A DNA stretch of 64,000 bases from Micractinium sp. NFX-FRZ (Eukaryota; Chlorophyta; Trebouxiophyceae; Chlorellales; Chlorellaceae): contig JAPTJF010000111.1 in assembly GCA_029339195.1 (NCBI GenBank), positions 1 through 64,000 on the forward strand, in the 5' to 3' direction. This document shows, piece by piece, positions 1-21,200 of the stretch. Position 1 is the stretch's first letter. Each line of letters starts with the position of its first letter. The translations under genes were made by a program, and so were the position numbers. Under the pieces are notes generated by a model that saw nothing but the letters and a program-made list of their open reading frames with translations, did no database searches and was not told the DNA's origin.

Positions 1-648
1 GGCCTTGGTTTCACTGAATCCAACCCCTCCTCCAAATCGTTTTCACAAATCCAACCCCCTGGGGGCCTTGGTTTCACAAATCCAACCCCATTTGGGCCTT
101 GGTTTCACTGAATCCAACCCCTCCCCCAAATCGTTTTCGCAAATCCAACCCCTTGGGGGCCTTGGTTTTGCAAATAAACCCCCTGGGGGCCTTGGTTTCA
201 CAAGTCCAACCCCATTGGGGCCTTGGTTTCACTGAATCCAACCCCTCCCCCTAATCGTTTTCACAAATCCAACCCCCTGGAGGCCTTGGTTTTACCGAAT
301 CGAACCCCATTGGGGCCTTGGTTTCACAAATCCAACCCCTCCCCCAAATGGTTTTCACAAATCCAACCCCATTGGGGCCTTGGTTTCACAAATCCAACCC
401 CCTGGGGGCCTTGATTTCACACAATCCAACCCCTCCCCTAAATCGTTTTTCACAAATTCACTCCCCTGGGGGCCTTGGTGTTACAAATCCAACCCCATTG
501 GGGCCTTGGTTTCACTGAATCCAACCCCTCCCCCAAATCGTTTTCACAAATCCACCCCCCTGGGGGCCTTGGTATCTCTGAATCCAACCACTCCCCCAAC
601 CCCCAGCACACCACTCCAACCCCCTGGGTGGCCTTGGTTTCACAAATC
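1..648. repeat. 31-bp minisatellite, higher-order three-unit array
   Basis: About 20 diverged copies of a 31-base unit built around CCTTGGTTTCAC, AATCCAACCCC and TTGGGG. Units of the CCTTGGTTTCACTGAATCC type alternate with units carrying AAATCGTTTTCACAAATCC, giving a higher-order period near 93-94 bases (for example equivalent positions at 3, 97 and 190). The array runs off the left edge, so its true length is unknown. The long open frames inside it follow from the 31-base period and are not genes. Confidence 0.9.
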
Positions 649-2319: not shown

Positions 2320-3847
2320 TCAGCTGGCCGCTGCGGCCCCCGTGGCCTCCACCCGGGCCGCCTCTGCCTGCGCCGCCTGCGCCGCGTCGCGGGCGGTGTA
2401 GCATTGCGTGGCAACGACTTTGATGACAGCCAACAGCCGCGTCCATGCCTGCTTTTCCGTGGTGGAGAACTTTGCCGGAAGCAGTGATTCGACAAACAGC
2501 GCGATGGCGCCCAGGACAATGTCGTCTGCATACAGTCGAAACAGGGGGAAGTGCATGATGGGAGCTGGATAGCTACGTAATGAAAGGCCGAACCAAGGCT
2601 GATGTGCATGCACACTTACCGTTCCCACTGGCTGTATGTTCCATGGTTTCGAAATACTCGGCCCGGAGCGACATCTGCTTCGGGACAAATGGCTCGATGC
2701 ACTGCCCAAACCCCTCGGTATTGACCACACTCACAATGCACCAGCTCGACCCCGTAGCGGTAGTGCCGCTCAATGACATCAGTGAGGTAGCTGCGAGGTA
2801 TGTGCGGGAGAAACGGAGGAGAGGTAGGGGTGACAAACCGTATTGGGTGGGGGAGAGGGAGGGAGGGGGCTGAGACATGCCATGGTGGCACATGCAAGAG
2901 GCGTGCAAAGACACATGTATCAAATAGTCAGCTTTGCAGTTGGGCTCTCCACACACAACCTCATGGCACACCACCAGGTACCCCTCTAACCACCAATACG
3001 GCACCCTCCTCCTGCCCATTGGCTTCTACTCCAATGTCGTGCCGCCCGCTGGTCACAAAATGTTCCCCGGCACACTTCTAACCCGCCAACGGCTCACCGC
3101 ACGAGCGTGTCTGTGTGCTGAAGCAGCGAGATGACCTCCCCAATGGACATGGCCACGGTTTTGCCGTGCTTGCGCAGCTCTGCGTCCACCGGCTTGCCAT
3201 CAGAACCCTTGAAAGGGAAGAAGTCGAGAGTGGCGGGGTAGCTGGAGACATGAAACAGGGGATATGAGGGCAGAGGAGCGGCGCACAAGGTAAGAGAGAT
3301 GCATGGCTGAAGCTGGGCAACAGCAGCAGCAACACGGCAAAATGTTAGGGTGAATTGCCGTGTGAGATCAATGCGGAACTATAGCTCCAAGTCAGCATGT
3401 GGGCCCGGCATGCATAGGAGCAGTAGCAACAACATCAAAGGCAACGGCATGAGCGCGGTCTCACAGGTCGAAGAGCGCCAGGAACAGGCTACGCCCAAAC
3501 TCCTCGACTGCCTCATCCGAGTTGGCGGGCTTGGACTCGCCTGCAGGGCACAAATGTGGGAGCACATAGTGGGGAGCTAGGTGGGTGGGATCCAAGGCTG
3601 CTTGACACCCAAGTATGTCAGACGCCAAAGGTTAGCGCCGCCGCCCGCAACCCAGAACCCATGCCGCGCCCTGCTTGCCTGCCACAAGCGCCCAGCTGGC
3701 CCGAACGAGCGCAAGGTCCTCGGGCGACACGCCCAGGCCCTGCAGCATATTGTTGCCGCTGGAGGGATCGGCGGAGCCTGGGGCCGCTGAGGAGACGGTG
3801 TGTGCGGGGCGGATGCCGCCACCTCGCCCGCGCAACAGGTTGGCGAC
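2320..3847 (-). other. C-terminal globin domain of the NOS fusion
   Basis: Six exons from 3847 to 2320. The A helix is in [18 protein letters not shown], the B helix in [14 protein letters not shown], then [20 protein letters not shown] with a distal-type His in the KHGKTV context. The proximal-type His is in [10 protein letters not shown], and the H helix is in [19 protein letters not shown]. Both haem-pocket histidines are present, so haem binding is likely. The tail after the H helix is Ala-rich. Globins can oxidise NO to nitrate or sense O2/NO; which applies here is inference. The donor after RYGVEL (2742) is the least certain junction. Confidence 0.85.
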
Positions 3848-6800
3848 CTGGAGGGCCAATGTGGAAACCGGGGGAGCAAAAGGAGGGTGAGATATTGGGC
3901 AGAAACCACAAAAGGTTTGGCTGACCAAAGCATCGCCACCCCGGGCACTTGCTGTTCCAAGCTACGTGAATGCATGCTCTTAGCGTACCGGAGCACTTCA
4001 TTAGTTTCAATGTTGACTTTTTCAATGGTTGCGCAACCCACTTGCCTGCGGCTTGCCCAACGCCACTGCGATCTGCACGGGCGTCATCCCCAGGGCATTC
4101 TGCAGGTTGGGGTTGGCACCGCCGTCTAGCAGCGCCTCTGCCAGTGCCTCATTGCCCAGCGCGACAGCCACGTGCAGAGGCGCAATCTGCGGGCGGGCGG
4201 GGGGAAGGGGGGGGGGTCAGGACGTGTGGACAGGCTCAACCCAGCTCTGGTGTCCATGGACCAAAACAGCAAGCAGTGAACCACCCCATCTTCTTTCAAG
4301 GACATTGCGGCAGCTATGTTGTGCCCCTTAATGCCGCACATCCAGTCCTCCACCCAACGCACAGCTCCTCCCCCTCCCAGTTCTCAAGGCCCCCAAACCT
4401 CCGTTCCTCGTTTGGGGGCAAAATAGCCGATCTCAAAACCTGAAAATGCAAGGCACAACCCTCACTTGAAAGTAGTCTTGCTGGTTGGCATCCGCGCTCT
4501 CAGCCAGCAGCCGGGTCGTCTCCACCACATCGTCCTCCATCACCGCCGCGTGCACCGGGTAGAAAGATGCGTGCAGCTTGCTGGCGCGCTGGGCGCCCGC
4601 TGCCGCCAGTGCAGCGGCCGCCGCCTCCTGCCCCGCCGCCGCCGCCTCGGCCAGCGGGGTCAGCCCAAACTTGTTGGTCGTGTTCAGGCCCGCCCTGCGC
4701 TCAACCAATGCTGCTACCAGGTCAACCCGGCCCCCGCGCGCCGCATGGTGCAGCAGCGTGGACGCCGTCTCGTCGGCTGCGGCGCACGGTGAACAACAGG
4801 GGGAGGGCTTGCATGGTGAGAGAAGTGCAACAGGCGCAGCAGGAGGGTGAGGAAGCTTTGTAGGTGGGGCAACAAGGAGAACAGGCAGGCAATTGGTAAC
4901 AGGAATGGGAGGCAGCAAGCTGAAGATTGGAGGTGGGCTGCAACAGGCGCCATGGCGTCTACCCAGCTAGCCTAAATCCATGCAGCCCACCTGTGTCTAC
5001 ATGCAGGCCGCCATCCAGGCGTGCCAACACTGCTGCCAGCTCAGCGGTGGCCAGCGTCTTGACCGCAACCTGGTCCTGCGCCGCCTTGGCGGCCGCCGCA
5101 TGGTTGTTGACTGTGATGCCAAAGACATCTTCGTGGTACCTACAGGAGGCAGGGCACAGGAAGAATGGAGGGCGCGTGGGCAGCGTGGGAGGGAAGACAG
5201 GCGCCAAAATGCAGAAGGCAGCCTGGGCGGTGGGGTAACCAGGGTAGGCCCACAGACGTGCCGGCAATGGCCAGGCTGCAGAGAGCAGCTGTCATCTTCA
5301 ATTGGTCCCTGTACAGTCCACCCCTGTCCTGGCGTGTACTGCCCGGGTTATACTGACCCGGCTGAAACTGTAACGCCATGCCCGTCGACGGGCCCCACCC
5401 ACCTGCCCTCCTGCGCCATTCGGTCGATCACACCTTTGCCCGCCACCTTGGACAGTGCAGCGTTGACCTGTGACAGGGGTGCGGGGCAGCAGGCGTGTGC
5501 ATGGGCGGGCACGGGTCATTGATGCCAAAAGCAGAAACTCACAGCTGCCGCCATACCATGCCCACTGCCGCCACCTGCCTACTGCCGCCCCAGCCCACCC
5601 TGCTCCATGTCCATCACATAAGGACAACTCTCCCGCTCACCTCCTGCGCCATGTTGCTGCTGCCGCATATGTACACGTGGCAGCGCGGGTGCTTCAACAT
5701 TGGCCCCAGGAGCTCGCCTGACCGGCCAACCACGTCCTTCAGGAGGCAGAGAAGCGGTAGGGGAGCAACTCGGGAGCGCTTATGCACCGTTGCCACTAAT
5801 GCAGCTGAAGCAGCTGCCTGCCAGCCTGCTTGCCCATGCTCACACCAGACGGCTGTGCTAGTGCTTTTGGAGCAAGTCAACATGCCTTCTAATGCAGACA
5901 TGATGACAGTCCAGCCGTCCAGCCAGCCAGCAGCCAGACAGACAGACACTCAATCAGACACACACCGCCAGCTTCCCATCACACCTGCACATACGCCTTC
6001 TTCACGCCCGGCTCCCGGCTCAGCGCCGTCAGCAGCTTGCTGAGGCTGCCCGTCTCCACCATTTGCTCCAGCGTGTCCCGGAAGATAAAGTCGCCAGCCT
6101 TGGAGCGGCACCCAAACACGAGCACCGCGGGGCCCAGCTTCTGGCCCTGCTGCAACCGCAGCGTGCGCTCCTCCCAGAAGCCCTGCGCAGAGGCGGAGGA
6201 GGGGGCGGGGCGGCGGGGTGGTGAGCGGGGGAAAGAGCCGCGCGGGACACCGCAGGCGCCGAGCGTGATGCAAGACGCTGCCCTGGGAACGGGGCGGCGC
6301 CTGCTGCAACAACTCACTCCTTGGTTTGCCCCGCACAATGCAATCAGGTCCTGCTGGCTTGAACGCCAGCGAGTGCAGTACAATCACAAGAAACTTGGTG
6401 CGTATACTAAATCTCACCCGGAAGGGCGCCAGGCCGGTGCCCGCCGCCACCATGACCACAGGCGCCTCCAAGTTGAGCGGCTGGCGGAAGGCCGGCTGGC
6501 TGGTGAGCTTGAAGCGCACACGGTCGCCCGCCTTGAGGCCGGTGATGAACTTGCTGCAGAACCCGTGGCGCTCCGCACCTGCACAAGCGGCAGCAAGGAG
6601 TGGAGAGGTCAGGAGGCAGTATGGGAGCAGCGATCTGGTGCCTGCTGGACTTCTCACAGCATTGCTCCCTCTCTGCTCCTCAGCAACATGCCCATGTGTC
6701 AGACCCCAGCACGGGTGAAGTAGCTTGCCAGAACGGAGCGATGGCAGAGCAGTCCCGGGTGAGCAGGCCACCCTTTGGGAAACAGCCACCTGAGAGAAGA

Positions 6801-9800
6801 CGGAAAGCAGCATTTCTGTATGTTGGCTGATGAGATCTTACCCGAAGGCAGCTTGTAGGTCAGCAGGCCGACAGTTACGGCCACCTCATCAGGAGTGACA
6901 GCACTAGAGGACGAGATACTGCAGATTGGGAGGGACAAATGGCATGGTGTGTTGCCTTGACAGAACAGTAATCAAAAACATGAGGACACTGCAGCGGGAG
7001 GGTGGGCACGCCGGCTGGACGCATGGTCGGTGAGCAGGGAGGAACGCCGCTGATAAGCAGGCGGGTGCGAAACAGAGAGGCAGGCGAAGGCATCAACATG
7101 CGTTTCCATCACCAGAGGCGGAGGCGACCACCGGCCGCTTTCAGAATTATCGGTTGGCAATGGCTGCTGGCACCCTAGGGGCAGGTTCACCGACGGGCCC
7201 TTACCTGTAGTAGCGAGGCTTGAGCACCGGCGCCAGTTGGAAGAACATGGACAGCGGCACGCGCAGCAGCAGCGAGGGGAACAAGCTGAACAACTCGCCC
7301 CAGCAGGGCTGCACGCAAGTGGGCGGCATGGCAGCTGATGTGGTTTGTAGGGGGTGGCAAGGCAGTTCAGACGGCATGGGAGGGCCCAGTCCGGACGCGG
7401 TGTTGGCCTGTGCCTTAGAGACAATGCATTGGAGATGGTGGCTACTGCCGGAGGCCTTGCCACCCCGTTTGCCCTCTTCCCCCTCGCTTCCCATTGAGCA
7501 TTCCAACTGCTGCCCCACCCACCATGACGGAGGCGGCCCAGGCCTGGTAGGCTGCATAGTCGCTGGCGATGCGTGCCAGCTCAGCGTCCTCTGGGGCGCA
7601 CCCCGACAGCGCGGCGATGGCCGCAAACGAGATGCCTTCACTCAGCCCCACGTGGCGTGCGAGCACGGTGCGGAAGGAGTTGGGCAGCGGGAAGCGGTCG
7701 CCCGCACCCAGCACCGCGTCCTCCTCACCGTCCTCATCCTGCAAAGGCGGGGGGTCGAGAGTCACAGAGTTAGGTGCGGGTGCTGACATGCAGCGGTGTG
7801 AGGCAGCGCCGCCGCCCTAAATGCTTACGGCCACACGCTGCCTTTGCCTGCCTCCCTAGCAGGCAACCATGCTGCCCCTCGGGAGTCGCACCTCCACGAT
7901 GCTCTGCAGCAAGAACATCTCATCCAGGTCGGCAATGCCCAGCTGCTGCGAGAAGCGCTCCACAAGATCTGCAGGGTTCTGCCCCCAGATGCAGATCTCG
8001 TCGCCGGCATAGTAGTTGCCGCATGAAACCTGCAGGGGCAACGGAGAAGATAGGGGTCAGCCCGCAACGGTTGCTGGAAACATAAGTGGCTGTGTTGCTG
8101 GTGGCGCATGCGCACGCAACCCTTGTGGGAGAGGGGCAGTGTCAGGAACGGAAGCGAGGGGTGGCCCCCCGGGCGAGCGGCGCGAGGGTCACACAGGATG
8201 GTGCGGCAGCGTGAGGCATTGGCAGAGGCAGGGCGGGTGCATAGACAGGTGCAACGCCTCGCAGTTCACAGCCCCCCTGCCCATGCCCTGCCCCCGCTCA
8301 CCGAGCTGATGTCAAGGCGCACAAACTTGGTGGAAGCGCCGTCCTTGGGCCCGGGCAGCACCTCTCGTGCCTCCAGCACCGTGCCCCAGTGGCACCGCTT
8401 CTCGCGTGCCGCCTTTAGGCCCTCCCCAGCAATGCGCACGAGGGTGTAGACGGGCACAAAGGGCGGCGGCTGCGGGGAGGAAGAGGGCAGGGGAGAGGGA
8501 GGTGGGGAGGGTACAAGGGAACCGCGAGCACCAGCAGGGAGGTGGGGAGGGGAGCAGAAGAACAGCAAGCACTCGCCATGCGCAGCGCGAACCGATTTGC
8601 CACGCACCATCCACCCACCATGCACACATCCTGCACACACCTTGCTCCCGTCGCTCATTGGCAGCTTGTTGACCAGCTCCCCCTGCTGGCCCTCATCCAT
8701 CCAGCCTGGAAAAGTGCGGCAGAATCGACATGTGAATGCAGCGGCGGCAGAATCGACAGGTGAAGGCAGCGGCGGCAGCATGCTGCAGACGCGGCCCCTG
8801 CCATGTCCCCTTCTGTGCCCCACCTTCACTCTTATCGCTGTCTCACTCACCTTTTGCCACGCAGACCTCGCCCAGGCGCTTCACCCACGACCACACCGTC
8901 ATCTCCTCGCCTGCCAGCGCATCAGCCTTGCCCACCGGCAGCAGCGACGTGCCGCCCACCGACAGCAGCAGGCTGTAGATGAGGTCGGCGGCCGCGCAGA
9001 AGCGGGGGTAGCAAGAGGAGCCGAAGCCCAGCACAGCCACTGGCTTGCCTGCAAGCGAGGGAAGCTCAGAGTGGGGGGGGGGGGGGGGGGTTGCAGGCCG
9101 GTGGGTCACAATGCGGGAAGTTGGAGGGGCACGCCTGTGCACGGCATCGCCGCACCCCGGCCGGCACGCCTGCACTGCACGCCGTATCTCCGCCGCTGCC
9201 CTGCACCCACCAGCAAAGCACTCTGTGACGTCCTCGCTGCCGCCCTGCAGCCAGGCCACGAACTTGGCGGCGGAGCCGGGGGGCGCGCCCGGGCCGTAGG
9301 TGGAGGTGAGCACGACCACCAGCGCAGAGTCGTCAATGGTTGCCGACCACGAGTCGGACTCAAACTCCTCGCAGTTCTGCACAGTGACAGCCAGCTGCCC
9401 CCGCAGCGCCGCAGCCACCGCATGCGCAAAAGCCTCTGCAGGGAGGGCAGGAAGAGCGGAGGCAGCAGGTGGAGGGCAGGGCTTGCCGGGTGGGGTGCCA
9501 GGCGGGGAGGCAGCGGGCACGCCAGCCACCTAGGCAGCGGTGTGCAGGCTGTGTCTCCCAAACACCCTGTCCAATCCCTAAGGCCGTACCACCCGGTCTT
9601 TCATCACCCCAAGCCACAGAAATACCTCGCCCCTTCTGACCTGTGTTGCCCGTCACGCTTGCATAAATCAGCACTGCCTTGGTCAGCGCGACAGGTGCAC
9701 CAAGCAGCCCAGCCGTGGCCTCCTCCCCGGAGCGGCGCGGCATGGCGGCCGAGCTGCTGTCGCCCGACAGGCGCGCCAGCTGCGAGGCAGCGCTGCAGCC

Positions 9801-12800
9801 CAGAGGCTCGTCAGGGTGGTCGCGCTCCCAGCGGTCCACAAAGGCCTTCCAGAAGGGGCCGTACCAGTAGCCCTGCGGTCCGGACGGGAAGGGCCCACGG
9901 ATGGCGTGGCTCTTTGGGCAGCTGCAGCAGCGGTGTTTGCGGTGCGCCGCCGTGCTGTTGCAGGTATTGACGGGAACACACATGCCCTGAACGCGCTTGG
10001 CACACCCTCACATAATTGGCATGTCTGCCGAAACCTCCTCTCTGGTTGACAGCCTCCACCCCACCCTGCCCTGCCAGGTCCTCACCGGCTTGATCGTGTA
10101 CTCAATCATCTTGTTCAGCTGCAGGTAGCACTTGGTGGCTGTGGGGGCCATCGGCTGCAGCGGGGCAAAGGGCGCATGGCCAGAAAGAGGCAAAGCAAGT
10201 CAAGCCACGCCGCCTCCCCAGCTGCAGCCCTGGCCTGCCTTGCATTCTCCCAGTGCTCAGCCCACGCCCCCGAATGGCCAGTCCTCTTCAGCCCTGTCTC
10301 TCCCGGTGCTGTCCCGCGCTCACAGTGATGATCCACTTCCAGCTGCGGCGGTTTGGCAAGGAGGCAGGAGGGCAAGGAGGCGGGGAGGTGGGTGAAAGGG
10401 CACAGTAGGTGTAGAGTGGGGCACAGGCAAGAAGGAAGGGGGGCAAGAAGCGCAGGCGGCAGGGGGTGAGAGAGCGAGGGAGGGAAGAGGTGGTGCAATG
10501 GCCATGGGCACTGCTGGCGAGTGGGCGCAGGCAGTTTGTTTGCGACAAGTACAGGCTGCTCATGAAGGGGTTGCTGTCGGCCCCCCGCCTCACCGCTGCC
10601 CAGCTGGACTGCCTGCTGGCCAATGAGCGCACCCTGCCCGCCCACGTCACCACCGATGTGAAGGGGTGGCTTGCCGCCTGGGAGAAGCAGGTGCTGGGCC
10701 TCCGTGAGCGCCTGGCGCACATGGGCAGCAGTGACCGCCCTCGCTCGGCTGCCAACCCGCAGTAGCTGTCATGCTGAGCACGGTACACCCTTCTCTGGCC
10801 CAGTCACTGCCCACGAAGCAGCTCTCACTCACTTTCCGGGGGAGTAGCCGCGCCGCAACAGCTCCCGGTTGTACCTGTAATGGGGTGGACACAAGGGCGG
10901 GGCAAAACTGTTGGCTGGCATTGACGCAGCCAGCCTGCGCAGCCTGCAAGCACGGGGTAAGCATGGGTAAACACCCCTGGGCCCCGCCACGCCCGCCAGC
11001 CCCAACACCGAGCCACTCACCATTTGTAAAACTGCTGCATGAGGCTGGTATGGTCCACCATGCCTGCGGGCGGGGGGGGGGGCAGTGCCGGGTGGGAGGC
11101 AGTTGGCAGCAACTGAGCCACTGCCGGCGGCGTTTTCCCTCTAGCCCGCCCTTCTGCATTGCTCGCTTGCATGCCCAGCGTGCACGCCATAACCCCTCCC
11201 CGCCTTCTCAGCCCCCGCCCACACGCACCCATGCCAGCCTCCCGGAAGCTGTGCAGCACGGCCATATCAACCTCCACAATTGCTCGGTCACGCCACAGGC
11301 TCGTCTCCGCCTTGGTGTCCAAACCCAGCGCACGCGCCACAGGCTTGATCATGTTCAGCCTGCAGCAGACGGCCGGAACAGTAATGGGAGCAAGGTGGGG
11401 ACGCGGCTGGTTCGCCGGCGGGAGGCGGGCAGGAGGGGAAGGCAGCGCAGCAGTGGGCAAGCGGGCGGGCGGGTGCCCAAGCGGGCAGGCAGGCAGGCGG
11501 GCGGGCAGGCAATGAGCGGGGCGGGCAGGCAGCTCCCTGCATCCCGCCCAGCCAGCTGGCCAGCCAGCCGCACCGGTGCTCCTCCGTGATGTTCCTGCAG
11601 GTCAGCGCCAAGAAGGATGGGCACCACCGTCAAGCTAGTGTGTGCCTGAGCCCTATTGCCACCCCTGCCCTGGCCCGACCCCGATCCGCATGCACTAGCA
11701 GGCTGCTGATCATCATCGCCTCTCACTCACACAACAAGATGCATCCTGCATTCACCAACCTAGTTATTCTCGCACCCACGACAAGGCTCCCAGCATTGGC
11801 TGAGAAGTGAAGGCAAGGGCATGTGCCGTGCCATCCACCTACCTGACGATCTCAGTGTCGGCGTACCACCCATTGAAGGGGCAGGCGGTGTAGGTGAGGC
11901 CGCCCACACTGAGCTCCAGGCAGGACACAGCGGGCACAGCGTACCTGCAGGCAGGGGCAGGAGGCGCCGGCGCGGGTGGGCGGGACGGGGCGGGGGCGCT
12001 GATATTGACCAACACATGAGCTGGCCTGCTGGCGTAGGCATGACGGGGATACTCTGGCGCTGAGCCAGTGGGCAGTGCCACGTGGTTCGACAAGCATTGC
12101 TGAGCTGCATGGCTGGAAGCCTGTGCCTGTGCCATCGCTACGCTGCCCTGCCATCCGCTGCTGCACGCTCAGCTGCAGCAAACCCCCAGCCAGCTCACCA
12201 CTGCAGGCCCAGAGCGGAGATGGCCTCGTTGTCGGGGTGGCGGATGGGCACGATGATGACGTACTGCTCTGGCAGCGTGAACATCTGTGGCAAAAGAAAA
12301 CAGGGCGGCGGAAAGATGGACAGGAGGCACTTGGAGCAGACGGGCACTGGGACAAGCGATGACAGCGACTGCAGCAGGGCCGCTGCTGTGTGCCCCCTGT
12401 ACTGCTCCCCCCGCGCCCTCACTCCACCCTGCCCCCATTTTTGCACCTCTGGCTGCTGATCGGGGTGCGCCTGCAGCAGCACGGGTAGCAGCGTGAAGCG
12501 CGGGTCGGCGCTGGCCGGGGGCGTCCAGCCAAAGCGCTGCGTGCACAGCTCCGTGAATTCGGCCTCTGCCGGGTCGCCCACCACGCTGCCGTCTGGCTGC
12601 TTGAAGCCGGCATAGCTGCACAGCAGAGTGGGTACAGCCAGGGAGGGCAGCGAGGCATGTGAGGTGGGCAGCCCGCAAGCAGGCCGCAAAACTGGTGGGC
12701 AAGCCATCGAGCGCCAACGCCTGCCTGCCCGCCTGCACACATGTGTGCATCCCTGCCTGCATGAACGCCTACCTGCATCCCGGCCAACCTGCCAGCATCC

Positions 12801-14032
12801 CGGCCCCAAGCCCACCCTCCAGACCACCATGCCTTGCCAGCCTGCACCCCGATGGCCCCTCTCCTGCTGTCCCCCTGCTCCTTCCGTCCCACCCAGCGCT
12901 CACGCCATGGGAGCACTTACCGGATGAGCTGGTTGTTCCACACGCGGGGGCCATCCTGGGTGCCGGGCGTCTGTGCACGGAAGACTGCGATGTTGGCGGT
13001 GGTGACGCAGCTGAGGGTGGCGCGCTCCAGCACCTCCAGGCAGCACTCAAACATCTCTGCAGGCGTGTTTGCTGCTCTCCCGTCCACAAGCTTGAGCTCC
13101 TCCCAGAACTTGCGGTTGCTGCACTTGGGCGCGTTCCTGCAAAAGGGGGTGGCACCGTGCGGGCACCGCGGCAGCAACAAGCTTCAGTGGCCAAGAGCGG
13201 GGGGCAGGGGCAGCTCTCATGCAGCAGAGGGCAGAGGCTGCAAGACACTGCAAACTTAGCCGCTGACCGCCCAGCTGCAGCGGCAGGGATTGCGCTGCCC
13301 CCGGCAGCAGCCCTCTCTCCAACCCACGCAACCAAGGCAGACAGCTAAACCTTACATCCCCACCTCCAGGCGCAGCGCCCGCCGTGCTCCAGCTCATCAT
13401 AGGTGTGGGTGTAGGTGCCGGTGGCCTCGATCTCCGCCAAGATCTCGGCCACACGCGCCTGGGCAGCAGTGGCAAGGGAGGAGCGGCGCGGTGCAGTGCG
13501 CTGGTGGGGGAAGGAGGTGGCAGGGATGAGGTCGAGCCAGGGGGTGTCCCACCCTGCGCCAAACCATGTCCTTCACCTCTCAACACCACAGTGCTGTGAG
13601 ACGCTGCACGCAGGCGCCTGCCTCTGCCCGCCCCCCGCCATGCATATGCCACGGCAGGCATGCGCAGTACCTCTTTGGCACCCGGCGGGGTGGCCTTGTC
13701 CATGTGGTACAAGTCCTGGTACTCCAGAGCCTCGCGGATGAGCGTCTGCCGCGGGGTCTCGCCCACATAGCCATACTTGCCCAGCGCAGGGTCCGGCCTG
13801 CAAGAGGCGGCATGAGAGGCGGTGTCCTTGCGGCGGCAGCGGCTGCGGGGGGCCCTGTATCGTGTCTGGGACGGGGCCCCGCTCCCGGAAGCGGTGGCCA
13901 AAGAGAGGCACATGGGGATGGCAGGCTGGCAGGCCCTTGTGAGGCCAAATCCCCCTGTGACCGCCTCACTTCCCACCTGCAGCCGTGCTTGCAGATCACG
14001 GGGTGTGCGCCATGGACGTAACCTGCGGCCAT
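2320..14032 (-). CDS. NOS: Nitric oxide synthase fused to ankyrin repeats and a globin (35 exons, about 1,513 aa)
   Basis: Makes NO and citrulline from arginine, O2 and NADPH. Order: haem oxygenase domain, FMN flavodoxin, FAD/NADPH reductase, about five ankyrin repeats, globin. The haem-thiolate motif is WRNAPKC and the arginine pocket is [11 protein letters not shown]. Start ATG at 14032 (context CAAATGGCC). All phases agree except where exon 13 needs the donor after 10012. Exons: 14032-13977, 13797-13671, 13458-13364, 13136-12921, 12615-12447, 12284-12199, 11944-11843, 11594-11574, 11359-11229, 11063-11021, 10874-10833, 10342-10324, 10154-10012, 9921-9641, 9435-9211, 9048-8851, 8705-8641, 8469-8302, 8029-7892, 7738-7523, 7308-7205, 6918-6842, 6578-6418, 6182-5985, 5736-5641, 5467-5403, 5139-4991, 4776-4466, 4186-4046, 3847-3679, 3540-3465, 3241-3098, 2790-2742, 2674-2620, 2525-2320. 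Two introns use GC donors. Cyanobacterial NOS with an N-terminal globin is known; the C-terminal placement here is what I see. Confidence 0.9.
4046..4776 (-). other. Ankyrin-repeat segment of the NOS fusion
   Basis: Two exons (4776-4466 and 4186-4046) encode about five ankyrin repeats. They carry [34 protein letters not shown], a more diverged [10 protein letters not shown] repeat, [19 protein letters not shown] with [11 protein letters not shown], and [15 protein letters not shown]. Both exons join their neighbours in phase (the first by a codon split G/CC, the second in phase 0). Ankyrin repeats mediate protein contacts; the partner is unknown. The second exon ends at a GC donor. Confidence 0.88.
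4991..9921 (-). other. NOS reductase half (FMN, FAD and NADPH domains), exons 14-27
   Basis: The flavodoxin starts at [17 protein letters not shown] and contains [10 protein letters not shown] and [12 protein letters not shown]. The FAD part has [23 protein letters not shown] and a C-S-x-F block ([18 protein letters not shown]). The NADPH part has [45 protein letters not shown] and [15 protein letters not shown]. This is the cytochrome P450 reductase/NOS arrangement. No 40-50 residue autoinhibitory insert is visible in the FMN domain, as in calcium-independent NOS forms. The usual short C-terminal tail is replaced by a linker leading into ankyrin repeats. Confidence 0.9.
9073..9090 (+). repeat. 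18-base poly-G tract in a NOS intron
   Basis: Uninterrupted run of 18 G on the plus strand (C-rich in the transcribed minus-strand RNA) inside the intron between the second and third flavodoxin exons. It is prone to length change and to sequencing error. Confidence 0.9.
10012..14032 (-). other. NOS oxygenase domain, exons 1-13
   Basis: Residues 1 to about 416. The N terminus has [14 protein letters not shown] with a C-x3-C pair. Then come an exon with [18 protein letters not shown], the haem Cys in [23 protein letters not shown], the GWTPP and LLPVLLQ block, [32 protein letters not shown], a 21-base exon, a [19 protein letters not shown] block, [11 protein letters not shown] and NWKWIIT. These match the conserved order of animal and bacterial NOS oxygenase domains, including the Glu that holds arginine and the Trp-x-Trp near the pterin site. 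The pterin-side loop is short. Its end, [19 protein letters not shown], is basic and lies where calmodulin binds in animal NOS; calmodulin binding is only inferred. Confidence 0.88.
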
Positions 14033-15282
14033 TTGGCGGTGCGGCTGGATGGGTGGGCGGCTGGCGGGGCGGCTGGCGGGGCGCAGGTGTCTACTGGGAT
14101 GAGTTTCGGCCAACACCCAGGGCCGCGCTCTGCTTCTCAAATGATCATCAGCTACCCCTCCCACAATTTAAACCACGCACCAGGGAAGGGGCCTGCGCCC
14201 ACGGAGCCATGGCCGAATGGGCAGCGAGATACACGCACAGTGGTGCCCAGATGCGTCTCCTCCACCAGGCCTGGCCCCAGATCGGCCACGTGGGAGCACC
14301 TATCGGCCGGCTGGCCTTCTGCGCCCGGTGAAGGGTCATGAGAGTGCGGGCAAGGACTGCTGGCGACCTTGCGGCTGGCCGCCTTCGACACCTTGGCGCC
14401 CATATGGAGCGACGATGCCTCGGGGAAGACAGCGGCCGCTGTAAGGCCGCACAACCGGCACACCGCTCTGCCGGAGCGGAACACACTGTCCTGACCGGTC
14501 GCGTCATGTTAACCACGCTGCCAGGCGAGATCAAAGCCCTCCACCTTGGCAAATCTGGACGTTTGTGGCCGATCGCAGCGCCATAGCGGCGACTCCTTGA
14601 CCTCAGAGGCCAGGGCGGCATCCTCACCGCCACACCCAACACTTTGCGGGTGCCGCCGCCAGGCCTGCTGCCGGGCCACACAGAGAGGCACCCAGCCCCC
14701 ATCAAACCTTGGCTGCCAATCGATCAAACATGGTCGGGTGTTCGGGGTGTCGTTGCCGGGCTTCACACAGGCACCAACCTTGTGGGGGTGGTCCACCCGG
14801 GTTGGCGGGGTTCGTGCGCTTGGGAGGGCCGGCGTTGACATGCAACCTTCCCATAAGAGCATAGCCGTGTGGTCCACCTTACTCCGTGTTTCAGCATTAG
14901 TGCTTGTTCTATAACGCGTCTGGACTACACGCGCATCCTTCCTCCCGCTGCCCGCCTGCTGCCTCACCCCGCATGCCGCCCGCCTGCCGGCGTGAGCAGA
15001 CAAAGTCCCCTACGAATTGTAACTCAAGTGGCGGGCAGGTAACAGCTTGCTGAACATTTCCCACATACATGCAATGTCCTTGACAATATGTCCATGGCCG
15101 GCCAGCACATGCGCGCGTTGCAGGATGCGGGCGGCGGCGCCTCTTTTTGGCCAGCACGCTCAGCAGGTCCGGTGTGCAGCAGTTGGCACCCGATGGCATT
15201 TCATTCCGGTGCGATCATCTTAAGCTAACTGAAAACTTTGTAAGGGGATGCCGCTGGCACCTTCACCTGCGCCACCCTGAAC
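14033..15282. other. Divergent intergenic region between NOS and RST1/FOCAD genes
   Basis: It holds the promoters of two divergently transcribed genes. I see no gene here: the open frames on both strands (for example 14509-15003 minus) match nothing I recognise and lack convincing splice partners. An AT-rich TTTAAA at about 14166-14171 could serve the NOS gene, and a TATAAC at about 14911 lies far upstream of the plus-strand gene; neither is convincing. The region just upstream of 15283 probably contains the plus-strand 5' untranslated sequence. Confidence 0.5.
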
Positions 15283-18200
15283 ATGTCCCAGCTCCAGCAG
15301 CATTTGGAGCGCCTGCGGGTCCCGCATTGCGCCCTGCAGCATGCTGCAGTGGCCGGTGTGTTCGATGCGCTCTCGAGAGCGCCAGGCACCACTGCCGCTA
15401 GTCGGGACGCAGCGATCGCAACGTGCCTGGGGTGCGAGCACCTGGTGAGGCAGCGGAGATCGAATGTGAATGAGATGGGCGAGACTGATTGGGGGCGCCT
15501 GCTTGGAGCGGCCTTCTGCCTTGCCGCCTGCCTGCCGCTGCAGACCCGCCTGTGCCAACTGGCTCTCCCCTTCACCCCTTCACCCTCATGCAGCCGGCGG
15601 TGGAGGCTGCAGTGCAGGGTCTGCTCAGTATGGACGCCATGCTTCTGGGCACCCCACCGCAGGACCTGCTGCTCACTGCACTGGCGGTGGCACGGCCTGC
15701 CACGGCGCCGCCGTTGGTTGATGGCCTCCTGCACGTGTTCCAGGATGCCAGCAGAGGCAGCCGCAGCAGCAGCACCCCGCCGACCGCAGCCTGGCGCAGC
15801 CACCCCCTCAGCAAGGCGCTGCTGGCCAACACTGCGGCCGCGCAGCCGCTGCTGCTGGGCGTCACGCGCATGCTCACGCGGGCAGCCAGCGGTGGTGACG
15901 GTGCTGCGCTCGACTCACTGCTGGCGGCGCTGCGCCCCTTCATCAGCCTGGTGCTGCTGGACCCTGAACTGCAGCAACAGCAGGCACAGCTGGCGCCGCA
16001 GATGCATGCCGCGCTGGCACGCGTGGCCTGCTGCTGCGACAGCCCCTCCACCCAGCTGGCGCTGCTGGCGCTGCTGGCGTCGCGGCTGCCGGCGCTGCGC
16101 CTGCAGGGTGCTGGCTGCCAGGCGGTGGTCAGCGCGGCAGTGAGCAACGTGATGGATGTGCTGGAGAGCTGCACCGACGAGCCAGGTGGGTGGGGAGCAG
16201 CCGGCCCTGCCCTCCCCCCTCCCGCCTCGCCGCCCCTTCCTGTGCCCGGGCGCTTGCCCACCGTCAGTGCGCTTGCCCGCCGTCAGCCTGCGCTCCATTT
16301 GCTTCTCCATCTTCCCACCTCTCTTCATGTCACCTGCACCTCCTTGCAGATGCCGCCACCGTGTCGGCCCTCTGTTGCAGCATCATCTGCCTGTGCCACG
16401 AGGCGGCGCACGAGCAGGCAGCGTCCCTGCTGCAGCAGCTGCTAGCAGCCCTCTCTCACCTGGCGGCGTACTGGCCGCACCTGCTGGCGCCACACGCTGC
16501 CGACCTGGGGCTGCTGCTGGTCCAGCCGCAGCAGCTGGGTGCCGCGCAGGCGCAGGCGGCGCTGGCGCTCCTGGTGCAAGTGCTGCAGCACACGGCCAGT
16601 GTCGACAGCTCAGCATCAGGAGACGGCGCTGGGCAGCAGGCAGAGCTGGCCGCCCTGCTCCTGCTGCCGCTGCTCCAGCACGTCGCCTTCAGCGCCAGCA
16701 AGGATGTGAAGCAGTGGGCGACGCACACGCTGGCCCTGCTGCAGCAGGTTGGCGGCAGCGGCAGCAGCAGCAGCAACAACACGAGCAGCGCCCAAGGCAG
16801 CAGCAGCAGCAGCAGCAGCAGTGGCAGAGGCAGGCTGCATGGAGCAGCCGCAGCGGTGCAGTCCGCCCAGCGGCTGTTACACGAGCTGTGGCAGCGCCCG
16901 CTGGAGGCCCGACACTGGCTGGCCTCACTGCAGCTCACGCTGGCCAGCTCGGCGGCAGGCAGCAGGGCTGCCCGTGACCAGATGCACCTGGACAGTGGCG
17001 CCCTGATGGTGCTGTGTGCCCTTCTGCAGCACCCCTCGGCAGCTGTGCAGCAGGCGGCGTTGCGCTCGGCTGTGGCAGCGGTGGAGGCCACCCCCCTGCT
17101 GGGCCTGACGCTGCTGCCGATGCTGGTGCAGCAGCTGCAGCGCCAGGTGGAGCTCTTCTTGTCTGGTGAGTGCGGGCTGACGGCTGCAGCTGCTGGTGCC
17201 GGCTTAGCTGAGGTTGGTTTCCCCTGGGGTAGGTTTGTGCCTGCATTGCTGCGCCCTGAAACCCGCCGTGTTCCCGCCCTTCGCCGCCCGCCTCCAGGCA
17301 AGCACAAGCGGCCTTCCCGGCTGCTTCTGAACCTGCTCCAGGCTCTGCCTGCCGCTGGCCGCCACCCCGCCGCACTGCCCTTTGTGGTGCGCACGCTGCA
17401 GCAGCTGCTGTCCCAAGGTGAGCCCGGTAGCACACATGGCAGGACCTTGCAGTTGCCAGAATGCTGGCCACAGCGCTTGGCCCGGCGATGCTGCGCTGCC
17501 ACTATGTGTGCGTCCATGCACCCCACATGCATGCACCCCACATTGCTGACTCTGCTGCCCACGTACCCACAGGTGCCCCCGAGGCACTGCAAGCGGTGGG
17601 CCTGCGCTTGCTGTGCCGCCTCTGGCGGAGCAGCGGTGGGCGCGCGTACCCGCAGCTCCGAGCAGCCGTCATAGGTGCGTGCCGCTGGCCTGCTCTATGC
17701 AGTGTAGCTCGGGCATGCTGCTTTGATTTTGTAACACCGACCCCATCCGCTGCCTGGTGCCTGCCCAGCCTGATGTATCAACGCTCCAAGCTCCCAGCCT
17801 GCCCTCACCCCTTTCCTGACTTCCTATCTGCGCTCCTTGCGATTCACCGCCCGCCTGCCCACCTGCTGACAGGGTTTGCCGCCCCAGGGCAGAAGCCGGG
17901 CGTGGCGCTGCGTGTGGCGCGTGCCAAGTGCCTGCGTGACGTGTGCACCTTTGACCCCGACAAAGCGGTGGAGCTGGTGGGGCTGCTGCAGGTGAGGCTG
18001 GGCAGCTCACGTGCTTGCACACGGCTGGGTTTTGTGGGGTGTGCCCGGCTTTGGTACGCTATACTTATAAGCTGGCTCAGGCACACCCATGCCCAGCAGA
18101 ACCTTAAACCTACTCTGGCCTGCCCACTCACCTGCCCCGCTGCCCGCCTCCTCCTTCACTGCATTTCCAGGAGTGTGTGGGCGACGAGGAGCCAGCGGTG

Positions 18201-21200
18201 CAGGCCATTGGCCTGGACTGCATTGCGCTGCTGTGCGAGGCCGATGTGCTGGAGTTTTATGCTGCCTGGCGGGTGGTGCACCGCCAGCTGCCACGCCTGC
18301 CCGACCACCCGGCAGCTGCGGCAGCCTGGGTGCGCCTGCTTGGCTCTGGCGGGCTGGACGCGGCAGTGCAGCCAGATGCTGCAGCCGCCATCGTGGACGC
18401 CCTGTGGCTGGCAGCCGCCCATGATGCCCCGAAGGTGAGCTGGCTGACTCTGGGCAGTGTAGTGGGGCCACATGGCAGCGCGCGCATTAAAGGATGGCAC
18501 CCCTGCTGTCCCCCCTCCCCTCGAGCACTTGTGGCAGCCGTCTTTTTTGGCGGCGCCATGGCCCACAGACTGTGCCAGCACCCTGTGGCAGTCTCCAACC
18601 TTCTCTCCCACCCTTGGCCTCGCAGGTGCGGTGCCAGGCGTACGCCTCGCTGGCGGCCTTCCAGCCGGAGACGCTGGAGGCCCTCGGTGCGCTGCGCCCG
18701 CTGTGGCACAGCGTGGCCCTCCTGCACAATGAGCTGCGGCAGCGCCAGCAGCCGCCCGCGGCGCCTGGCAGGCTGAGGCTGCAGCGCCACCAGCGGCAGG
18801 CGCTGGCAGAGTGCGAGGCTCTTGTGCAGGCGGCGCTCGCGTATGAGCACGCCACGCGCCGTCGGCAGGCAGCGCTGGGCCCTGCCCCTGGCAGTGCAAC
18901 CCGCGAGCGTGGCAGTACAGCAACTACAGCCAGCAGCGGCGGGCAGGGTGCACCAGCCCTGGCCCACCGCCTGCAGTCCGTGCTGCCCAAGCAGCTGTTG
19001 GGAGGCTCAGCAGCCTCGGTTTCTGAGCTGCTGCAGCGCCTGCCAGAGCTGCCAGCCGCGTCGGCAGCGGTGCTGTACTTCTATGCCCCGCCGCCTCCGC
19101 CGGTCAGCGCCAGCAAGGCGGCCGCAGCCGCAGCAGTCAGGCAGGCAGCTGCCGAGTACCAGGCGGTGTTTGAAGATGTGCTGCGGCAGCAACCGGCGGT
19201 TGCCACAGCTACAGAGGACGCAGGGGCGGCTGCAGAGATGCTTGACGCCTGGGCAGCCTTCATGCGCCGCTGGCTGGCAGCCATGCGGGCAGCAGCCAAG
19301 CAGCAGCAGGCAGACGCGCAGCAGGCTGCAACAGATGCAGCCATGCAGGTATGGCAGGCTGTGCATAAGCAGCTGGAGAGCAGCAGCAGCAGCACGCCGG
19401 CAGCCACAGCAGCTGCAGTATGGGCAGCGGCAGCGCTGTGCTGCACCACACCGCAGCCGCTGTTGCCCCTGGTCACAGCTGTGCACAGCACGCTGCACGG
19501 CATTGCAGCAGGGCAGCAGATGGCAGCGGCAGCTGTGCAGCGGGCATCTGTGGTGGCCCTTGGCGCCCTGGCAGAGGCTGTGCGGGTCACCCAGGGTGCC
19601 TCTGTGGCGCAGGCCCTGCTCCAGCTGCTGCAGCAGCAGCTGTCGGCTCTGCAGGGTGCAGATGCCGCAGCAGCTGCAACTGGCCTGGGCCTGGCATGCA
19701 AAGTTCTGAGCGGCTCCAGCACTGAGCTTCCCGAGGCCACGCAGCAGCTGGTCTGGAGCAGCCTGTCCAGCCTGCTGCAGGCACTGTGCGAGGCGTGGCC
19801 AGCAGGCGGCAGCGGTGTTGCAGCGGCAGCGGCAGCAGATGGGCTGGAGGTGCTGACGATCGGCACAGCCCAGACCGGCGATGGGCTACTGCCGGCTGCA
19901 GCAGCAGCGCTTGCAGCAGCCTTGCCGGCGGCTGCCTCGTCCCTGGCCCTGCCCAGCGTGCTGTGCTCTCTGCATCAGCAGCTGGTAGCTGAGCTCTCGC
20001 AGCAGCCAGCGCTGGGCAGTGCAGCCTCGGCTGCAGCCTTTTGCGCTCTGCTGCAGGCAGCCACAGCAGCAGGCTTTGCCTCTACCGCTCTCAGCAGTGC
20101 TGATGTCGGCTGCAGCGTGCGCCTCCTGCTGAGCCTGACGGTGCCTAGCCAGGCGGCAGATGGCCTGCTGGTCGGCGCCGCAGCCACCGGCGCTGCCTCG
20201 CTTCTAGCCGCCGCACTGCAGCAGGGCTTCAGCCCTGGGTCAGCAGAAGAGGGTGCTGAGGCAGTGCTCACGCAGCTGCTGGCAGTACCAGAGGCAGCGG
20301 CCAGGTTGCCACATGCAGCTGCGGCCAAGCGAGGAGCAGCGGCGGGCATTGCGGTGCTCCTGGCCAGCTCTGCTGTCGACCCGTCATCCTCTCAGCACTT
20401 CAAGGCAGCAGGTGGGCTCCTGTCAACTTGTGGCGCTGCTTTGTTTGGCTGCGCCGCATGCCTGCGCCATGTTAAGACGGCTGACAGTGTGCTAGCCACA
20501 AGCTGTAGGTGTCATGCTACCTCGCCTCCTCCCCACATGTGACCTGCAGTGAGCAAGCTGGAGGGCCTTGCTCTGACAGACACTGACCCCAGGGTCAGGA
20601 GGGCTTGCACCCTGCCCCTCGCCTCACTTTGCCACGCCGTGAAGCGCAGCGGCGGGCTCGGCGGCGGAGCCAGCGGCACTAGCGACAGCCGCGGCGGCAG
20701 CGCCAGCAGCAACCGGGGCCTGCAGCAGCTGCCGGCTGACGGCGCGCTGCGCCCGCTGCTGGAATCGCTTCTTGAGGGGCGATGGGTGCTGCCAGGTGGG
20801 TCTGCTTGCATCTGCTGTGAATGAGGGGAGTGGACGGGCAGATGCTGCCTGCCGCCAGCGTGTGTTGGGCCTGCTCGATGTACGTGTTGGGAGTGACTTG
20901 CCCCGTCTCATGACGCCCGGCCCCTGCTTGCCTGCCTGCCTGCCTGCTCTGCAGACGTGGACAGCAGTGAGGGCCCGCAGCAGGTTCTAGCGGCCGGGGA
21001 TGCTGCGGCCATCCTGCGGTGTGCGGCCGCCGCACCGCGCCTGCCAGCCATGGGCTTTGGCCTGCTGTGCACCCGCCTGCAGCGCACGTTCAGTGGCAGC
21101 ACAGACACCACAGAGATGGAGCAGGCACTGGCTTCCTTTGCGGCAGCGCACGGCAGCCAGCAGCAGTACCAGCTGGATCCATTTGCAGCTGAGCTGTGCA

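Follow-up and report, generated by a model that had tools for sequence, protein, structure and literature searches.

The window, i.e. the whole 64 kb stretch of DNA that was analysed, belongs to a host genome of 66 Mb in 838 contigs. On its minus strand lies a predicted gene for a NO synthase (NOS) with a C-terminal tail made of ankyrin repeats and a globin. The final predicted model has 35 exons, running from 14403 to 2320 on the minus strand, and encodes 1527 aa, the sole stop being at the end. Its 34 introns are GT-AG in 32 cases and GC-AG in 2. Coordinates are as follows.

2320..14403, minus strand: whole gene model (splice-graph search, corrections by eye, relatives)
14181..14403, minus strand: exon 1, within the open frame 14152-14508
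Exons 1-7, minus strand: 14403-14181, 14022-13977, 13797-13671, 13458-13364, 13136-12921, 12615-12447, 12284-12199
Exons 8-14, minus strand: 11944-11843, 11594-11574, 11359-11229, 11063-11021, 10874-10833, 10342-10324, 10154-10086
Exons 15-21, minus strand: 9872-9641, 9435-9211, 9048-8851, 8705-8641, 8469-8302, 8029-7892, 7738-7523
Exons 22-28, minus strand: 7308-7205, 6918-6842, 6578-6418, 6182-5985, 5736-5641, 5467-5403, 5139-4991
Exons 29-35, minus strand: 4776-4466, 4186-4046, 3847-3679, 3540-3465, 3241-3098, 2790-2735, 2525-2320

Exons were chained by a splice-graph search independent of relatives, seeded at the ATG at 14032 (the start given by an earlier, sequence-only reading of this DNA), with codon usage trained on exons pre-selected by eye as NOS-like, and with three intron penalties. 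The chains obtained were phase-consistent. The two stricter penalties yielded 36 and 35 exons, both chains ending at 2320, and the loosest yielded 44 exons, extending to 698. In corrections by eye, guided by NOS motifs, 10342-10324 took the place of one micro-exon and two others were taken out; the micro-exons discarded were 5574-5557, 5275-5258 and 10612-10594. As the last two had been retained by the search at the strictest penalty, the final model does not come from the search alone. Relatives supplied exon 1 (14403-14181), the starts of exon 2 (14022) and exon 4 (13458), the end of exon 30 (4046), and exon 31 (3847-3679). A 55-base candidate exon at 2674-2620, present in the loosest run, was rejected because the splice from 2735 to 2525 yields ELVHYDIVL, which matches the relatives.

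The phase-consistent 35-exon fusion model described by the sequence-only reading is confirmed as real. The proposed start was rejected: exon 2 begins at 14022, which places the ATG at 14032 inside intron 1, and exon 1 had been missed. Exon 1 starts with MGAKVSK and ends with SRCPFGHGSVGAGPFPG; its Met, the sole one of that open frame, is the predicted translation start, and an additional exon may lie upstream. The CP-x-GHGSVGAGPFPG part of this exon matches Micractinium, and its end, CPFGHGSVGAGPFPG, runs into YVHGAHP, likewise in Micractinium.

The predicted N terminus MGAKVSKAASRK (14368-14403, minus strand) fits the N-myristoylation pattern, with Gly2, Ser6 and Lys7. Such a modification would place the enzyme at membranes, as for endothelial NOS. 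Similar N termini are seen in the protein P0009 (MGCTYSRP) and in a Bryopsis NOS (MGLTESKF); among the 15 further N termini compared, the majority are unlike MGAKVSK, several belonging to truncated models. The two GC-AG introns, 4045-3848 and 3678-3541, stand on both sides of exon 31, which crosses the ankyrin-globin boundary. Outside the gene, a degenerate tandem repeat array (periods roughly 31, 63 and 94 bases) occupies 1-600, about 1.7 kb past the 3′ end, and long open frames on the plus strand (15244-18438) start upstream of the NOS gene.

The NOS part of the protein comprises the following features; every domain named here or below was above its Pfam cut-off on the final protein.

9861..13748, minus strand: NOS oxygenase domain, residues 107-467, exons 3-15 (PF02898 NO_synthase, E 3.6e-115)
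13121..13123, minus strand: Cys169 codon (NAPKCSNR), aligned to NOS1 chain 8t1j
11851..11853, minus strand: Glu352 codon (GWYADTE), aligned to NOS1 chain 8t1j
8903..9671, minus strand: FMN (flavodoxin) domain, residues 531-664, exons 15-17 (PF00258 Flavodoxin_1, E 8.9e-24)
5465..8379, minus strand: FAD and NADPH domains, residues 734-948 and 980-1090, exons 19-27 (PF00667 FAD_binding_1, E 3.1e-30; PF00175 NAD_binding_1, E 1.9e-14)

The full oxygenase domain and complete reductase proposed from the letters alone are thus both present. Cys169 occupies the haem-ligand position, and Glu352, identical across 15 aligned sequences, the arginine-binding position. The predicted identity of the enzyme as a eukaryotic-type NOS with conserved catalytic positions is supported. 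In the host genome, PF02898 matched five exons, all of them from this NOS gene. Cys85 and Cys89, candidates for the N-terminal zinc-site cysteines, are spaced C-x3-C, the atypical spacing reported in PMC8728061. The linker between oxygenase and FMN domains (residues 464-532) has a net charge of −1, and by eye no obvious basic amphipathic helix was seen in it. Since this is where animal NOS bind calmodulin, control of this predicted enzyme by calmodulin appears doubtful.

The tail is joined to the reductase within one exon, and its features are given below.

4991..5139, minus strand: exon 28, the junction, with YHEDVFG and the first tail residues
3830..5000, minus strand: ankyrin repeats, residues 1158-1317, exons 28-31 (Ank_2, E 2.8e-16)
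2383..3751, minus strand: globin, residues 1344-1507 (profile limits), exons 31-35
3482..3484, minus strand: codon of Phe1387, position B10 of the globin
3166..3168, minus strand: codon of His1418, the distal E7 histidine
2763..2765, minus strand: codon of His1450, the proximal F8 histidine

That a plain NOS gene and an adjacent gene for an ankyrin-globin protein had been joined in error had to be considered, as the domains of the tail form a set of their own and Edaphochlamys has an adjacent NOS annotated without a tail (P0006). Exon 28, however, encodes the last NOS motif, YHEDVFG, together with the first 42 tail residues and is stop-free, and the intron that follows is only 214 bases long. 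The tail is moreover on the same chain in all 11 other tail-bearing proteins among the matches listed. For one of them, P0003, the whole fusion of 1485 aa is encoded on a contig of 4687 bases, 4455 of them coding; this leaves no room for so many introns, and the contig therefore resembles an assembled transcript. On these grounds (exon 28, the short next intron and the relatives) the two-gene reading was rejected as highly improbable, and the locus is almost certainly a single fused gene, as first proposed. Exon 28 and P0003 also argue against a NOS message that stops near 4991. A scan of 4700-5200 for bacterial-type promoters and terminators, a type of scan that is little informative for an alga, returned nothing.

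The sequence-only reading had suggested searching other algae for NOS with ankyrin and globin. At least 11 such proteins were found among the matches listed: those of Micractinium tetrahymenae, Chlorella vulgaris, P0003, Edaphochlamys, Chlamydomonas incerta, Chlamydomonas schloesseri, Gonium, Chlorokybus (two), Mesostigma and Apatococcus, the last with a cut globin. A first search gave 34 matches, of which 19 (P0016-P0034) were P450-type or sulphite reductases and were excluded; in a wider one the best 120 of 155 matches were considered. The closest named relatives among the matches listed are from Chlorella and Micractinium, which agrees with the green-algal kinship supposed at the outset. 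The proteins of M. tetrahymenae (ABPG75_003248) and Chlorella vulgaris (D9Q98_001771), named just hypothetical proteins, have an identical domain order and 68% identity to the predicted protein over 96% and 95% of the length, respectively, which excludes a chance match; in the Chlorella vulgaris model the N terminus is incomplete. The seven proteins from Edaphochlamys, the two Chlamydomonas species, Gonium, Chlorokybus and Mesostigma have ankyrin-globin tails too, their identity to the window's protein being 42-53% for the core but 31-38% for the tail; their tails score 173-241 bits on a tail-globin profile that four of the seven helped to build. Without a tail, among the matches listed, are the Klebsormidium NOS, those of Bryopsis and Ostreobium, and the adjacent Edaphochlamys copy.

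The C-terminal place of the globin had been presented as a contrast to an N-terminal globin already known from NOS. This contrast is not supported, since C-terminal cases are already in PMC8728061, which counts seven species with C-terminal NOS globins, Gonium being credited there to Santolini 2019. According to that paper, KnNOS2 of Klebsormidium nitens (GAQ90485.1) is extended at its C terminus by about 380 residues, in which an ankyrin motif and a globin bearing distal and proximal His are found, the same layout as in the window. KnNOS2 differs in being of the streptophyte lineage, and the likeness rests on the published description and not on an alignment of the tails. The architecture is therefore not new, and the window's gene is a further case of a known kind. 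Among the open-licence papers listed by the searches, none, judged by title and start of abstract, concerns NOS with ankyrin-globin in Chlorella-like algae, which is weak evidence of absence. The enzyme of the other known kind, syNOS of Synechococcus PCC 7335, and its bacterial relatives also combine NOS, diflavin reductase and globin on one chain. In these, however, the globin is N-terminal and there are no ankyrin repeats, whereas the window's globin occupies residues 1344-1507 of 1527. Two points are added here: the tail probably arose once, and its globin differs at position B10 from the bacterial-type globin-NOS.

The Pfam globin match spans residues 1386-1494 (E 2.3e-15), the CD1 residue is Phe1401, and both haem histidines noticed earlier are in place, as are, by eye, about five ankyrin repeats. 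A tail-globin profile was built from 8 of the 11 uncut tails. All 11 score 173-246 bits on it (the three not used for building: 230, 188 and 173), while the scores of 20 N-terminal globins of syNOS-kind NOS, a set which does not include syNOS itself, are 2-23 bits. At B10, among the matches listed, all 12 tail globins have Phe and all 20 N-terminal NOS globins have Tyr. Twelve of these 20 are those matched by the tail-globin profile; the other eight (P0121, P0123, P0128, P0131, P0137, P0142, P0143 and P0144) were unmatched under default filters, score 2-11 bits unfiltered, and had their B10 Tyr read from the motif FY. The E7 and F8 histidines are present in all 11 tails spanning both positions among the matches listed; the short tail of the Apatococcus protein, P0040, was excluded from this count, its apparent F8 His being a misaligned stub. 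A search with the globin profile for free-standing relatives gave four proteins, each of at most 126 aa and matched partially. The PF00042 globin search of the host genome had 0 matches and missed even the window's own intron-split globin, so that neither this absence nor the 0 matches of PF07700 (HNOB, NO-sensing cyclases) in the same genome counts. As a separate observation, six of the N-terminal globin NOS (P0123, P0128, P0131, P0137, P0142 and P0143) show another globin-like match, a partial one, on the upstream side of their N-terminal globin, as if there had formerly been two globins.

NO-dioxygenating flavohaemoglobins typically have Tyr at B10. This residue is absent from the tail globin, which has Phe1387 instead, so that the tail globin may not oxidise NO in the flavohaemoglobin style. 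Phe B10 with His E7 is typical of neuroglobin. The solved chains that the tail profile matches include neuroglobins (best E 1.1e-13). Together with the Phe at B10 and the histidines at E7 and F8 of the tails, and with a contact module sitting between reductase and globin, this raises the possibility that the tail globin is a sensor, with a bis-histidine haem like that of neuroglobin, in which the ankyrin part would shift when O2 or NO binds, switching either the reductase or a partner protein. We consider it a serious minority option. The best solved match is nevertheless not a neuroglobin: it is 3s1i (E 3e-18), named in PMC6104048 as a globin of Methylacidiphilum infernorum. Furthermore, the attached globin of syNOS is reported in PMC12922734 to oxidise NO to nitrate, and reduction of the globin within the full-length enzyme was measured there; the idea that syNOS follows a flavohaemoglobin-like path is found in PMC6104048 too. 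With this precedent, NO oxidation, as put forward by the sequence-only reading, is a reasonable role for the tail globin. By analogy, there is a slightly less than even chance that it is its main job, which makes it the best single guess. The tail globin probably acts on NO, perhaps not by the cyanobacterial route.

A passenger role for the globin was also weighed: the ankyrin module would be the key part, docking the NOS to a membrane or a partner, and the globin would ride along or aid folding. Conservation is lower in the tail than in the core (57% versus 76% identity with Micractinium, 62% versus 73% with Chlorella vulgaris), and some green NOS among the matches listed do without a tail, as this would predict. 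But a passenger would need no haem histidines, and E7 and F8 His are retained in 11 of 11 tails spanning them, from Chlorella-like algae to Mesostigma, which makes this reading unlikely.

The account we prefer, and hold to be somewhat better than an even bet as a whole, is that of one diflavin NOS gene with an ankyrin-globin tail acquired once, limiting its own output by turning NO into nitrate. The green lineage would have gained the tail once, before the chlorophyte/streptophyte split. The enzyme would form NO from arginine. Most likely, the ankyrin repeats serve to position the globin, or else to bind a partner protein. In this account they would keep the globin close, and the NADPH-FAD-FMN chain of the same enzyme would reduce it. 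The tail globin would then bind O2 and convert part of the NO to nitrate, so that the enzyme would limit its own NO output and return nitrogen to assimilation.

PMC8728061 suggests that the NOS-globin organisation could have arisen independently. KnNOS2, which is key to this published argument, is outside the set compared here (absent among the matches listed). Among the tail-bearing green algae in the comparison, the tails are homologous in sequence. By BLASTP, the ankyrin part of the window's protein is by itself enough to match every one of the 11 other tails among the matches listed, with E 7e-32 for Mesostigma and, for the weakest, Apatococcus, 1.01e-13. Topology tests were carried out on 11 proteins, P0040 with its cut globin being excluded from them and from the tail tree. 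The topology of the NOS core was not rejected by the tail alignment (p-AU 0.435), while 8 of 8 random topologies were. The reverse test, of the tail topology on the core alignment, gave a weak rejection (p-AU 0.029); the two differ in the order of the window, Micractinium and Chlorella vulgaris, where support is poor in both trees (70 and 51).

In the core tree (40 hand-chosen proteins plus the window), the 12 tail-bearing NOS are inside a 20-row group (SH-aLRT 90) together with 8 tail-less ones, and at least 5 changes of tail state are needed. Monophyly of the 12 was rejected (p 7.5e-5), for a group defined by the trait under study and with some tail-less NOS that may be truncated models. Given the tail-less relatives and the rejected monophyly, losses or exchanges must be assumed, and gene transfer may be part of the distribution. 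Taken together, the sequence comparisons favour one early fusion followed by several losses over independent origins, and a single old fusion in the green lineage is probable.

This bears on how green cells produced and contained NO, land plants being reported without NOS in PMC8728061. A tail common to Chlorella-like and volvocine algae, Chlorokybus and Mesostigma suggests that a haem-equipped NO source is old and was later lost. A more far-reaching version, which we put forward as a conjecture and think rather unlikely, is that the common ancestor of chlorophytes and streptophytes had the tail, gained once and apart from the bacterial globin-NOS, that its Phe-B10, bis-histidine-capable haem gates or senses instead of just oxidising NO, and that land plants lost this self-regulating enzyme altogether. 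The Phe/Tyr contrast at B10 offers a handle on whether both kinds of globin-NOS treat NO alike.

Two further placements were noted in the core tree. The two NOS copies of Edaphochlamys debaryana, P0004 and P0006, have consecutive locus tags (006385, 006386) and are sisters, the tail being present in one and absent from the other. The NOS core of Apatococcus lobatus (P0040) groups with Chlorokybus and Klebsormidium and not with the Chlorella-like sequences, which may reflect old paralogues or gene transfer.
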